50,750 bases of DNA. Origin: an uncultured Bacteroidia bacterium. Lineage in GTDB: Bacteria > Bacteroidota > Bacteroidia > Bacteroidales > UBA932. Positions 26,876-30,280 of the stretch are shown piece after piece; within the stretch, counting starts at the first letter, position 1; each line of letters begins with the position of its first letter. The translations under genes and the position numbers were made by a program. The stretch is from contig CADBFO010000015.1 in NCBI GenBank assembly GCA_902794005.1, positions 1 through 50,750 of the forward strand, written 5' to 3'. The notes below the pieces were generated by a model. The model searched no databases and had not been told where the DNA came from. It was given only the letters and a program-made list of their open reading frames with translations.

Positions 26876-28219
26876 ATGGCAAAATTATCAGAGAAAATAG
26901 GATATGGCCTGGGTGACGCCGCCGCCGGCGGTATTACCTGGAAGGTCATGTCCATCGCTTTTCCCTTCTTCTTTACCAACATTTTCGGCCTCACCGTGGC
27001 CGATGCCGGTGCGCTGATGCTTCTGGCGCGCCTTTTTGACGTGGTGACCGATCCGCTGATGGGCGCCATCGCCGACCGTACCAAAACCCGCTGGGGCACC
27101 TATCGGCCCTGGCTGATCTTCGGCGCCATTCCGCTGGGCGTGGTGTTTGCCCTGCTGCTCTATACGCCCGATCTCGGCCCCGGAGGCCGCAGGGTTTATG
27201 CGTATGCCCTGTACCTGCTGATGATGGCGGTATATACCGCCGTGAACGTGCCGTACGGTTCGCTTCTGGGCGTAATGACCGAAGACAGCAACGAGCGCAA
27301 TGAATTCTCTTCGTTCCGGATGGTGGGTGCCTATGCGATGGGCTTCATCACCCTTTTCTCCTTCCCGTATCTGCAGAAGATGGTGGGCGGAACGCCGGCG
27401 CATCAGTATGCCGTACTGGGCGTGGTGCTGGGCGCACTCGCCGCCTTGGGCACCCTGGCCTGCGGCCTTCTCACCCGGGAGCGCCTGGAGCCGGTCCGGC
27501 CCGAGAAATTCTCCCTGAAGCCTTTTGCCGACCTCCTTCACAACAAGCCGTGGATATACCTGACGCTGATCGGCATCTGCACCAACTTCTTCAATGGGTT
27601 CCGCTATGCCGTGGCTGCCTATCTGTTTGAATATTGCATGCATGGGGACGTGACGGTTTCCGGCCTCATCATCAATTACACCGTATTCATGATGTTCGGC
27701 GAGGCGGTCTGCATGGTTGTCGGCGGCCTCACGCCCCGTTTTACCAAGTGGGTGGGCTCCAAGTACAAGGCCTTCGCCTGGTCGGCCATCATCTGCGCCG
27801 TCTCCTCCATCGCCTTCTTTTTCATCCCCATGGACCCCGCCTGGATCTGGGTGATGATTGCCAATGTCATCGTAACGTCTGTCGGCATCGGCATCTATTC
27901 TCCGTTGCTGTGGTCCATGTACGCCGATGTGGCCGACTATGCCACCGAAAAGAACGGCACCTCTTCCACAGGCCTTATCTTCTCGTCCGGAACGATGGCC
28001 CAGAAGTTTGGTTCGGCCATCTCGGGCGCCCTTGTGGCCCTGCTCCTCGGTGCCGCCGGCCTTCTCTCCAGCCAGGATCCCGTCACCGGCGAAACGGTGG
28101 TCACCATCAGCAACCTGGGCGGCGTGCAGCACATGGTATGGGCCCTTTTCTCGCTCTTCCCGGCCGCCATCGCCCTCCTGATCCTCTTCCTCCTTCGCCT
28201 CTACCCCATCAAAAAGTAA
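26876..28219 (+). CDS. GPH-family sugar:cation symporter (MelB-like)
   Basis: A 447-residue transporter with about 12 membrane helices. The N-terminal KIGYGLGDAAAGGITWKVMS and the motif RLFDVVTDPLMGAIADRTKTRWGTYRPW are hallmarks of the glycoside-pentoside-hexuronide family, which couples uptake of di- or oligosaccharides to Na+ or H+. The central loop contains VMTEDSNERNEFSSFRMVGA, also typical. It follows the GH3 gene in the same operon, so it likely imports the sugars freed by the two glycosidases through the inner membrane. Its 3' end lies about 40 bases before the first RAYT-unit palindrome. Confidence 0.93.
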   Translation: MAKLSEKIGYGLGDAAAGGITWKVMSIAFPFFFTNIFGLTVADAGALMLLARLFDVVTDPLMGAIADRTKTRWGTYRPWLIFGAIPLGVVFALLLYTPDLGPGGRRVYAYALYLLMMAVYTAVNVPYGSLLGVMTEDSNERNEFSSFRMVGAYAMGFITLFSFPYLQKMVGGTPAHQYAVLGVVLGALAALGTLACGLLTRERLEPVRPEKFSLKPFADLLHNKPWIYLTLIGICTNFFNGFRYAVAAYLFEYCMHGDVTVSGLIINYTVFMMFGEAVCMVVGGLTPRFTKWVGSKYKAFAWSAIICAVSSIAFFFIPMDPAWIWVMIANVIVTSVGIGIYSPLLWSMYADVADYATEKNGTSSTGLIFSSGTMAQKFGSAISGALVALLLGAAGLLSSQDPVTGETVVTISNLGGVQHMVWALFSLFPAAIALLILFLLRLYPIKK

Positions 28220-28260
28220 TCCGGGTGGCCGGCAGGGTGCTGATATTCAGCTGTTTGCAT

Positions 28261-28293
28261 ATAATCCTCTGCGCTATTTGCGCAGAGGATTAT
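28261..28293. repeat. REP-like palindrome, left boundary of the RAYT unit
   Basis: Perfect 14-bp arms (ATAATCCTCTGCGC and its complement) around the loop TATTT, followed by GCGTAAGTTGC. The right boundary (29997-30041) has the same stem and the same CGTAAGTTGC tail in the same orientation, but its loop is AAATA, the reverse complement. The hairpin may also end transcription of the symporter operon. Confidence 0.9.
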
Positions 28294-28318
28294 GCGTAAG
28301 TTGCTGGTAGTCAACAGA

Positions 28319-29239
28319 TTATTCGTCACCCCGAAGGTGCAGATATTTCTCTATTTGGCGTGGACGGGCCGATGTCCGTTTCCTGAGGATGGCTGCCGCT
28401 TCCCTTTTTTGGTTCTCGGGCAGGGAAGGAATATCCATCAGGTTTTTCACGATTTTTTCCTTGAGCAAAACTGCGGCGCACTCTTGATACACGGCATCCG
28501 AGTACTTGTCATGGTCTTCTTTGATTTCGTAGTCACTCCCCGTATTGTCGTGCAGAGACCGAAGAAAGGCGTCATAATCTCCATAATAGCCGATAACTTC
28601 TTCATAGTCAATGCAGTTCCAAAGAGAGATGATGCTGTCGACGATTTGCCTGAATTCATAGGCATCGAGCTGCTTTTCCCATCGCAGAAGCTGGGCGTAG
28701 TGTAAATGACCGTTTCCCGTGCAGATTCTCTTGATTTCCTTCAGGATTCTCCGGAAGCGTGCCGATTTCCCGGCCAGCTGAACAGGTGCCGAGTATGGAT
28801 TTTTTTCGCGGGCGTAGCGTGCGAAATTCCAGCGATAGTCCTCCGCCCTCTCCACGATCTTTCTCTCGACAGGATTGTTGTAATTGTAATTGATGGTTGT
28901 TCTGACCTGTTTGTTTCCCAGTTTGGCCGAACTCATGAAGCGGGGTTTGAAAAGCGGCCCCCTTCTTCCCCTGGATTCATTCCATTCCCGTGCAAACAGA
29001 TGCGTGTACTGCTGTACAAACTTGGCAAGGGTGGTCCCGTCAGGAACGATGACCGTGTTATGTGTATGATCTGCCATGGGGCAAAGGGCAAGGACCGGAA
29101 TTCCATAGCGTCTGGCGACAGTGCAGTAAATGGTGAAGAATACCAGATAATCATAGAGGGTATAGAAGATGACTACACCGCCGATCGTTTGCTGGCATAC
29201 ATGGTGAACCTGTCCCGGATAGACTCTCCTTTTTTTCAT
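28319..29239 (-). CDS. REP-associated tyrosine transposase (HUH/Y1 family)
   Basis: A 306-residue IS200-like HUH nuclease. The metal-binding HUH motif is in CPMADHTHNTVIVP (HTH) and the catalytic tyrosine region is YNYNNPVERKIVERAEDYRW, matching the YIxxNPVxxGxVxxPEDYxWSS signature of RAYTs. The N-terminus MKKRRVYPGQVHHVCQQTIGG is typical of Bacteroidota members. A C-terminal extension of about 150 residues ends with QKREAAAILRKRTSARPRQ, which could be a helix-turn-helix for palindrome recognition. ATG 29239 is chosen because this is where family similarity starts; the frame is open further upstream. The gene appears intact. Confidence 0.85.
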   Translation of the reverse strand: MKKRRVYPGQVHHVCQQTIGGVVIFYTLYDYLVFFTIYCTVARRYGIPVLALCPMADHTHNTVIVPDGTTLAKFVQQYTHLFAREWNESRGRRGPLFKPRFMSSAKLGNKQVRTTINYNYNNPVERKIVERAEDYRWNFARYAREKNPYSAPVQLAGKSARFRRILKEIKRICTGNGHLHYAQLLRWEKQLDAYEFRQIVDSIISLWNCIDYEEVIGYYGDYDAFLRSLHDNTGSDYEIKEDHDKYSDAVYQECAAVLLKEKIVKNLMDIPSLPENQKREAAAILRKRTSARPRQIEKYLHLRGDE

Positions 29240-29370
29240 GCATTTCAGGCGTCCCGCTAGTGAGATACGCTCCGGCAAGATATTCAGGAGTTTTCGGGAA
29301 TCCAAGAATCGTAAAAAAGATAGCGTTGTTTCAGGTGTTTTTTCATTGTTTTTTACGATTGCGTGATGTT

Positions 29371-30018
29371 TCAGGATTCCCAGATTACCCATTTTCGGTC
29401 CAGTTGAATCCTTTTGGGCTTCCCGGCACGCCCTGTTATCTGATACAGACCGGTGTCATCCACCAAAGTTGCCAGGGCATGGTTAACGCGGGCGATGTTC
29501 ACGTTCAAGTCGTTGTTGAAAAGGTCCAGGATCCGGCTTACCCGGGTGGTGATTTCTGCGGGGCTGGAACTTCTGCTTACCCGCCTGTAGAGTCCTCTCA
29601 GTTCTTTCTCGTAATCTGCGATACATTTTAACTGTATTCCTTCAGGATGCCGCAGAAAAAGGAGCAGGACCGATTTTGCCATCGGCCTGATTTTCAATTC
29701 TTTTTTGCCGATAAAGACTCTAAGGGTCTGGGTGATTCTGACATATTGGGAAGGGATGGCGGGACTTAATCCGCGTCGCCTGACTTCTTCGGACGCTGCA
29801 CGCACGAAAGAAATCAGTTCTTCTGTTTCCCGTTCCTCCCAGCGGATGCCATAGTCATTGAAAGGCTCCTCAAGGCCTTTTCGGGAGAGAAAGTAAATAG
29901 CCAGCAAACCCAAATCTGTCATCTCGTATCTTTTTTTCGCAAGATAATCAAATTCCGCGACAGTGGGTGGCTGGTAACCGCTTGATTTGTAGGCGTTTAC
30001 GGATAATCCTCTGCGCAA
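29371..30018 (-). CDS. Winged-helix-like protein of the RAYT unit
   Basis: A protein of 215 residues if it starts at the TTG at 30018, or 183 if at the ATG at 29922. I recognise the family as a common, uncharacterised Bacteroidota protein: IRPMAKSVLLLFLRHPEGIQ, LKCIADYEKELRGLYRRVS and a C-terminal YQITGRAGKPKRIQLDRKW. The last 110 residues follow the helix and wing order of an OmpR-type winged helix, so DNA binding is inferred. The longest frame starts inside the right-hand palindrome, so the hairpin overlaps its 5' end. It precedes the transposase gene by 131 bases and may regulate or assist it. Confidence 0.65.
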   Translation of the reverse strand: MRRGLSVNAYKSSGYQPPTVAEFDYLAKKRYEMTDLGLLAIYFLSRKGLEEPFNDYGIRWEERETEELISFVRAASEEVRRRGLSPAIPSQYVRITQTLRVFIGKKELKIRPMAKSVLLLFLRHPEGIQLKCIADYEKELRGLYRRVSRSSSPAEITTRVSRILDLFNNDLNVNIARVNHALATLVDDTGLYQITGRAGKPKRIQLDRKWVIWES

Positions 30019-30041
30019 ATAGCGCAGAGGATTATCCGTAA
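29997..30041. repeat. REP-like palindrome, right boundary of the RAYT unit
   Basis: Perfect 20-bp arms (29997-30016 and 30022-30041) around the loop AAATA, followed by GTTGC. It shares the inner 14 bp of each arm and the tail CGTAAGTTGC with the left copy at 28261. Confidence 0.92.
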
Positions 30042-30093
30042 GTTGCAGCGTATCAATAGTTTACTTGTCAGCGGATGGATCGCATGCAGGCGC

Positions 30094-30122
30094 AAAAAAA
30101 GCAACCCGGCTGTGGGTTGCTT
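30094..30122 (-). terminator. Terminator of rpmH
   Basis: AAGCAACCC (30099-30107) pairs with GGGTTGCTT (30114-30122) around a 6-base loop, and the minus strand continues with seven T. It lies just after the rpmH stop. Confidence 0.85.
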
Positions 30123-30127
30123 GTTTT

Positions 30128-30280
30128 CTACCAGCGGTCTTCGTCGGAGACGGAGAGTTTCTTACGGGCGTGGCGGCGACGGGCGCTAAGGACGCGACGA
30201 CCGTTGGCGCTGGCCATCCGAGCGCGGAAACCATGCTTGTTCACACGCTTGCGGCGGGAAGGTTGGAATGTTCTTTTCAT
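30128..30280 (-). CDS. rpmH: 50S ribosomal protein bL34
   Basis: A 50-residue, highly basic ribosomal protein. The sequence begins [20 protein letters not shown], contains [20 protein letters not shown] and ends [10 protein letters not shown], which is diagnostic of bL34 with a short Bacteroidota-type acidic tail. It has its own promoter (30317-30346) and terminator (30094-30122). The usual neighbours dnaA, rnpA and yidC are absent here; the right-hand neighbour is rsmG, and the left one is the RAYT unit, which may have inserted beside it. Confidence 0.97.

Follow-up and report, generated by a model that had tools for sequence, protein, structure and literature searches.

Two hairpins with a common stem and oppositely directed loops enclose a two-gene cassette in the window, that is the whole stretch of 50,750 nucleotides analysed here. 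The cassette encodes a putative transposase of the RAYT type (P0001) and a partner protein (P0002). The question raised by this locus is what the hairpins are, and whether they bound a mobile unit, as was proposed in an earlier note on this DNA, or are part of something distributed over the genome.

The cassette and its hairpins

The description in the earlier note of two palindromes with a common stem, opposite loops and a common tail is confirmed in the sequence. The left palindrome reads ATAATCCTCTGCGC-TATTT-GCGCAGAGGATTAT (28261-28293) and the right one ATAATCCTCTGCGC-AAATA-GCGCAGAGGATTAT (30003-30035), the two loops being reverse complements of each other, and both are followed by the tail CGTAAGTTGC, at 28295-28304 and 30037-30046. 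The 14-mer stem (no mismatches) and the exact tail are each confined to these two sites within the window. The right stem extends beyond the shared 14 bp, and 33 identical bp are present as inverted repeats on either side of the cassette. Each hairpin is the centre of a complete 109-bp element (Table 1), and the left element starts 3 bp past the stop codon of the MFS gene. As single-stranded DNA the two elements fold more strongly than their shuffles, with z from -5.5 to -8.5. The earlier note had covered the hairpins; that they sit in a 109-bp element, that the ends of this element differ by lineage, that arms are swapped and that the cassette as a whole can be inverted had escaped it. The names rpmH, rsmG, MFS, pfkA and lpxK are what we take these genes to be, judged from their sequences and not from a family search.

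Table 1. Features of the cassette locus (positions in the window)
Feature	Position	Strand	Remarks
MFS-type transporter gene	26876..28219	+	conserved left neighbour of cassette
Left complete 109-bp element	28223..28331	.	arm 41, hairpin 27, arm 41
Left central hairpin	28261..28293	.	14-bp stem, loop TATTT on +
RAYT ORF P0001, 357 aa	28319..29392	-	stop codon inside left element
Partner ORF P0002	29371..30018	-	no known family
Right complete 109-bp element	29965..30073	.	
Right central hairpin	29997..30041	.	20-bp stem, loop AAATA on +
Terminator-like stem adjoining rpmH	30099..30122	.	separate from 109-bp element
rpmH (ribosomal protein L34)	30128..30280	-	conserved right neighbour of cassette

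The 109-bp element in its own genome

The genome of the window (G000; 2,062,857 bases in 57 contigs, 89% complete) carries the hairpin with at most three mismatches at 81 places, and the reversed pattern, used as control, at none. All 81 copies align gap-free as a 109-bp element composed of a 27-bp hairpin centre and two arms of 41 bp, which are inverted relative to each other. When the 162 arms are pooled outward, the information per column is high at fixed positions and close to zero past position 41. The arm consensus, read outward, is TWTRCGTAA-N4-YTGATNATCAR-N4-TTR-N3-GYCACCC, and it is identical for left and right arms when all copies are oriented by the A-loop (80 of 81, without the one truncated at a contig end). 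The loop is AAAAA in 72 copies and AAATA in five, both window copies being among the five. With the tail CGTAAGTTGC one of the two equivalent arms begins; the tail is a direct repeat, as the earlier note had it, and its reading as a one-sided guide is rejected because the arms share one consensus and the loop is tied to neither of them.

The arm contains a 25-bp dyad with fixed spacing. An RNA or DNA hairpin formed by the arm was rejected, since covariation sought in candidate arm pairs within this genome was absent; Rfam gave sub-threshold matches to the arm at most (best E 0.089).

The copies are dispersed between genes, and eight of the 81 lie inside an ORF call of at least 80 amino acids. 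The 73 elements with both neighbours called are found between divergent (21), convergent (17) and co-directional (35) genes, and of the 73 gene 3' ends next to an element, 28 fall from 13 bp inside to 12 bp outside it. Elements, e.g. L085 and L100, often coincide at their start with a neighbour's stop codon or run over it, and its TGA can belong to the end GGTGAC. At two loci the elements stand in tandem, with units of about 401 bp (L086; C12 56671, 57072 and 57473) and about 268 bp (L104; C34 22891, 23160 and 23428) running from hairpin centre to hairpin centre. Spread of the elements by phages or plasmids was considered and rejected: the exact hairpin was not found in the viral contigs searched, the plasmid search gave no match, and the phage search with P0001 returned one match, over 38% of the protein at 25% identity (E 3e-7).

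The transposase and its partner protein

P0001 scores 23.8 bits against the Pfam model Y1_Tnp (cut-off 23) and 47.2 bits against the NCBIfam model REP_Tyr_transpos (NF047646), which is under the cut-off of 80 for the latter. On this footing its earlier designation as a HUH/Y1 transposase of the RAYT type holds, and all 24 aligned relatives match NF047646 at E ≤0.001 (best E 3.5e-13). H109, H111, Y169 and N173 are invariant in the 24 aligned proteins, the HUH histidines and the catalytic tyrosine motif being present. The motifs of P0001 are DHTH, FK and YNYNNP, and some relatives have NHLH or NHIH. Because the homologues begin near residue 52, the start of the RAYT gene is probably at 29239. 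Its stop codon lies 13 bp inside the left element, and the same 13 bp are found at seven other loci (L052, L053, L055, L056, L068, L077 and L078); the stop is 17-40 bp inside the element at L054, L057, L058, L064 and L076, and outside it at others, e.g. L061, L070, L071, L079 and L080.

The genome of the window holds one close RAYT copy. A profile search of the same genome finds three distant Y1-like ORFs besides P0001, which are open frames at G000:C6:105447 (295 aa), C10:28366 (442 aa) and C34:13125 (326 aa). Several relatives carry two or more RAYTs of this type, with up to six matches, fragments included, so the single copy is true of this genome and not of the family.

For P0002 the ATG at 29922 is probably the start, giving a protein of 183 aa whose gene would lie outside the right element. 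Neither P0002 nor the members of its alignment have a significant match to a family or to a PDB sequence. Single alignment members reach three winged-helix-type models at E 0.13-0.24, all weak, in searches in which unrelated models come down to E 0.0043. P0002 may or may not be winged-helix-like, as it was called in the earlier note. In the first locus set the partner gene is present at L052 and L053 and absent from the loci of the other relatives; among the 31 named RAYT loci it is present in 16, which are those with a best-segment identity of at least 47% to P0001. In close pairs both genes are under purifying selection, with dN/dS of 0.05-0.09 for the RAYT and 0.08-0.14 for the partner (five pairs each, from one sub-clade that does not include the genome of the window).

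Distribution of RAYT genes and elements

The genomes compared are assemblies, many of them drafts in more than 50 contigs. A close RAYT (E ≤1e-30) is present in 22 of the 37 genus genomes, own included, and the search with P0001 gave no match in 24 genomes from other families; the profile search, which covered 22 of the 36 genus relatives, gave weak matches in two of the 14 other-family genomes run. The titles of the 31 named loci give uncultured Bacteroidales or Bacteroidia as the source, and in several cases a rumen or gut sample. The RAYT loci may partly come from the same species, and L203 and L228 are from one metagenome-assembled genome.

Of the 61 loci scanned (a set of 30, own included, and the 31 named ones), 40 have the RAYT bracketed by elements on both sides; the remaining 21, some of them without a RAYT frame, were dropped from this count, and the gene position at L072 was assumed. 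Shuffled controls, scored for arm skeleton plus central stem, gave elements in none of five. At the 40 loci the loops of the paired elements have the same direction in 17, opposite directions in 14 and undecided ones in nine, and the supposition that opposite loops are something special to the unit is not supported.

The arm skeleton TAA-N4-YTGATNATCAR-N4-TTR is common to the genus genomes scanned and constant, while the central hairpin and the terminal inverted repeat vary by lineage. The outer ends carry GTGG in our genome and CTGG, GTGA or CGTGTT in other lineages; they are conserved within a genome and covary between lineages. The foot of the central hairpin is TTACGYATA, without GTAG or GTGG. 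In the stretches read, the genomes differ in centres and ends: in the relative G005, 50 of 54 half-stems begin ATCCTCGG. G006, with five RAYT matches, has several different centres. G019 (seven elements; loci L182-L187) has two families, each with a centre and ends of its own, one of them resembling the family of G028.

Over 48 cross-lineage elements, 81% of the cells are paired (stem 91, terminal repeat 71), compared with 45% in shuffled and 38-41% in slid controls. The figure for the stem is partly so by construction, because the elements were found by a stem rule of at least eight pairs; the terminal repeat, its innermost column excepted, was not a selection criterion. The covariation score for the same elements is 0.83, against 0.20 when shuffled, and the number of pairs with a change on both sides is non-discriminating (22 observed, 21.7 shuffled). 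RAYT distance and stem distance correlate at 0.66 over 16 loci (0 of 2000 permutations), a relation that may arise from common descent alone; it was calculated on 51 of 55 elements, four with long inserts or weaker scores being excluded.

A strict pattern for the arms lacked sensitivity, and a covariance model was made in its place; it matches 32 of the 37 genus genomes at E ≤0.1 (best 1.7e-19). In 29 of these 32 the best match exceeds the best one outside the genus (4.6e-4), where nine of 24 genomes have weak matches. Both strands were counted and 63 candidates scored per genome, so the model counts are saturated. The median number of matches is 54.5 in the 22 genomes with a close RAYT and 4 in the 15 without (p 3.4e-5, kinship ignored), a comparison in which the model favours RAYT-bearing genomes because it was built from elements at RAYT loci. 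The linkage between hairpins and RAYT genes, named in the earlier note as a test, is found both in the bracketing of the loci and in these counts. Two genomes run against the trend: G030 (97% complete) has at least 63 model matches and no close RAYT was found in it, and G036 has a RAYT with one in-frame TGA and zero model matches.

Chromosomal place, empty sites and inversions

The cassette lies between rpmH and the MFS gene in our genome, in G005 and in G019, and near rpmH in 16 of the 31 named loci, with the MFS gene also present in 14 of them. The proposal that the two genes form a mobile unit does not agree with one copy here and the same place across genomes. The direction of the cassette relative to rpmH is away in 12 and toward in six of 18 rows, with four changes of orientation on the best RAYT tree, a number which could be lower on another tree since four of its 15 inner branches are weakly supported (L215, whose reading frame is unclear, was excluded). 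Elsewhere, the block between elements that holds gene B (L100/L177) is inverted between G000 and G005, as are, in the match table, the blocks L087/L171 and L082/L167; L102/L175, L092/L176 and L091/L180 are colinear.

Empty sites in close relatives, also looked for on the suggestion of the earlier note, exist, and like the linkage test this outcome favours an element that is mobile and tied to the RAYT. In our genome an element lies between the convergent genes pfkA and lpxK; in G005 and G028 these two genes are likewise convergent and have no element between them. At the other 22 of 25 genus pfkA loci no element is matched by the model immediately behind pfkA, lpxK being oriented otherwise or not found beside pfkA in these. 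G028 also lacks both element and cassette at rpmH, which is weaker evidence because the MFS neighbour there is just 35% identical.

Exchange of half-elements

When the arms are compared, 113 pairs are identical at 33 or more of 41 positions, with a column-shuffled expectation of about 4 and a random mean identity of 23/41. Among the 104 non-local pairs, the sister arms are unrelated (≤26/41) in 77 and related (≥33/41) in 12, and the loop is flipped in 53 and not in 51. Where the arms share the outer flank (22 pairs) the sisters are unrelated in 16 and related in three; where the flank is unrelated (87 pairs) these numbers are 66 and nine. Because members recur from pair to pair, these counts do not represent independent events. 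The idea that the hairpin can flip within its arms is borne out in so far as loop direction differs between homologous arms, 11 of the 22 flank-sharing pairs being flipped and 11 the same, and it stands in a broader form, with near-identical arms joined to unrelated sisters. The simplest reading of these sequence comparisons would be an exchange at the hairpin, in which the loop has no fixed orientation and copying may stop at the outer edge as well. In G005, at sites where one flank or both are shared, arm identity is close to random (17-30/41), and centre and ends differ in step with the genome.

Interpretation and alternatives

We consider it probable that the hairpins are the centres of a population of REPIN-like, non-autonomous elements of 109 bp, which a domesticated RAYT maintains; the gene is single-copy here and stays at one chromosomal place. 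On the best reading this RAYT belongs to a poorly described Bacteroidetes type and half-elements are exchanged at the hairpin, with the RAYT, we infer, as the catalyst. When an element becomes single-stranded, the HUH core would bind the central hairpin, nick it and rejoin the cut end to half of another element, and the long C-terminal part of the RAYT or a host protein would read the arms as double-stranded DNA. The hairpin being nearly symmetric, top and bottom strands would serve equally, so that loops flip and arms re-pair; copies that no longer fit the current RAYT would be lost or overwritten, so that hairpin and ends change together throughout the genome. A far-reaching form of this, which we put forward tentatively and think rather doubtful, is a genome-wide strand exchange in which some 80 near-symmetric sites would be continually re-paired at the hairpin by the domesticated HUH enzyme and its partner, with centre and ends rewritten together, the DNA between sites inverted, the enzyme's own cassette flipped and the double-strand code of the arms fixed for the genus.

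Against the RAYT-kept element population count the two exceptional genomes G030 and G036, the additional RAYTs of several relatives, the RAYT score under the NCBIfam cut-off, the lack of arm covariation within the genome, and RecA recombination between 109-bp repeats, which could also yield inversions. RecA is the main rival for these, and a scheme in which the RAYT spreads the elements and RecA-type recombination or gene conversion produces the arm swaps, loop flips and inversions is possible, if on balance unlikely. It would account for the 33 identical bp as inverted repeats around the cassette, for tandem units that run hairpin to hairpin and for the inverted blocks between elements elsewhere; it fits poorly with the many near-identical arms that have unrelated flanks (the 87 pairs, 66 of them with unrelated sisters too, the pairs sharing members) and with a homology of just 27-41 bp, which is little for RecA. 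That the elements are binding sites of a chromosome-organising host protein and the RAYT link incidental is improbable: the 25-bp dyad of the arm, with its fixed spacing and lack of covariation, does resemble the site of a double-stranded DNA protein, and G030 has its matches without a close RAYT, but the hairpin sequence follows RAYT distance and elements bracket the RAYT at 40 of the 61 loci.

We give very little credit to two further explanations. Transcription terminators would suit the gene 3' ends that fall at the element edges; the elements, however, occur in divergent and co-directional as well as convergent settings, the terminator scan does not list those of the window, and rpmH has a terminator-like stem of its own. 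The cassette with its hairpins as a mobile transposon would explain the element at each end and the absence of the cassette from rpmH loci elsewhere in the genus, and is hardly compatible with one copy, no identical copies elsewhere in the genome, and the same rpmH place in our genome, G005, G019 and the 16 named loci.

With the RAYT-kept population as the preferred reading, the record of exchange left in the copies (arm families that re-pair at one point, loops in both directions, hairpins that track the enzyme) opens the RAYT reaction to testing, and recognition can be studied with enzymes matched to their own hairpins. Small inversions in uncultured gut Bacteroidales may have one of their sources here.

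Relation to known systems

Our elements and their RAYT belong to a known kind of bacterial repeat system, in a version of which little has been described. In the open-access literature searched no description of the 109-bp element was found, the paper treating Bacteroidetes members being PMC6006769, in which TnpAREP subclass 2.6 (Bertels group 5) of the Bacteroidetes has atypical structures around its genes. The likeness lies in the phylum, in a HUH-Y1 gene flanked by atypical structures without a GT[AG]G foot, and in copies elsewhere in the genome (PMC6006769). The parts of that account drawn on here give no element length, arms, ends or swapping (PMC6006769). The motifs differ, being NH[LIV]H, WQ and YIH[QN]NP in subclass 2.6 and DHTH, FK and YNYNNP in P0001 (PMC6006769).

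The TnpAREP of E. coli cuts REP in single-stranded form and recombines it in vitro (PMC8266576), and the mechanism proposed here is modelled on this cleavage and strand transfer. The REP/BIME sequences are likewise mosaics of half-units in inverse orientation, but each REP has a GTAG foot and an imperfect hairpin, and no arm skeleton of this kind is mentioned in the parts of PMC8266576 drawn on here. With IS200/IS605 our system shares the HUH-Y1 family and, presumably, hairpin recognition; in contrast to the multiple near-identical copies of that IS type, the RAYT is a single copy at one place, and P0001 has Y-x-x-N-N-P instead of the Y---Q motif (PMC6006769). Like a REPIN, the element has two inverted halves. 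In the REPINs of Pseudomonas fluorescens, as given in PMC3116915, conservation is highest at the ends and the variable spacer shows compensatory changes, whereas our elements keep both centre and ends fixed within the genome and the arms vary without covariation.
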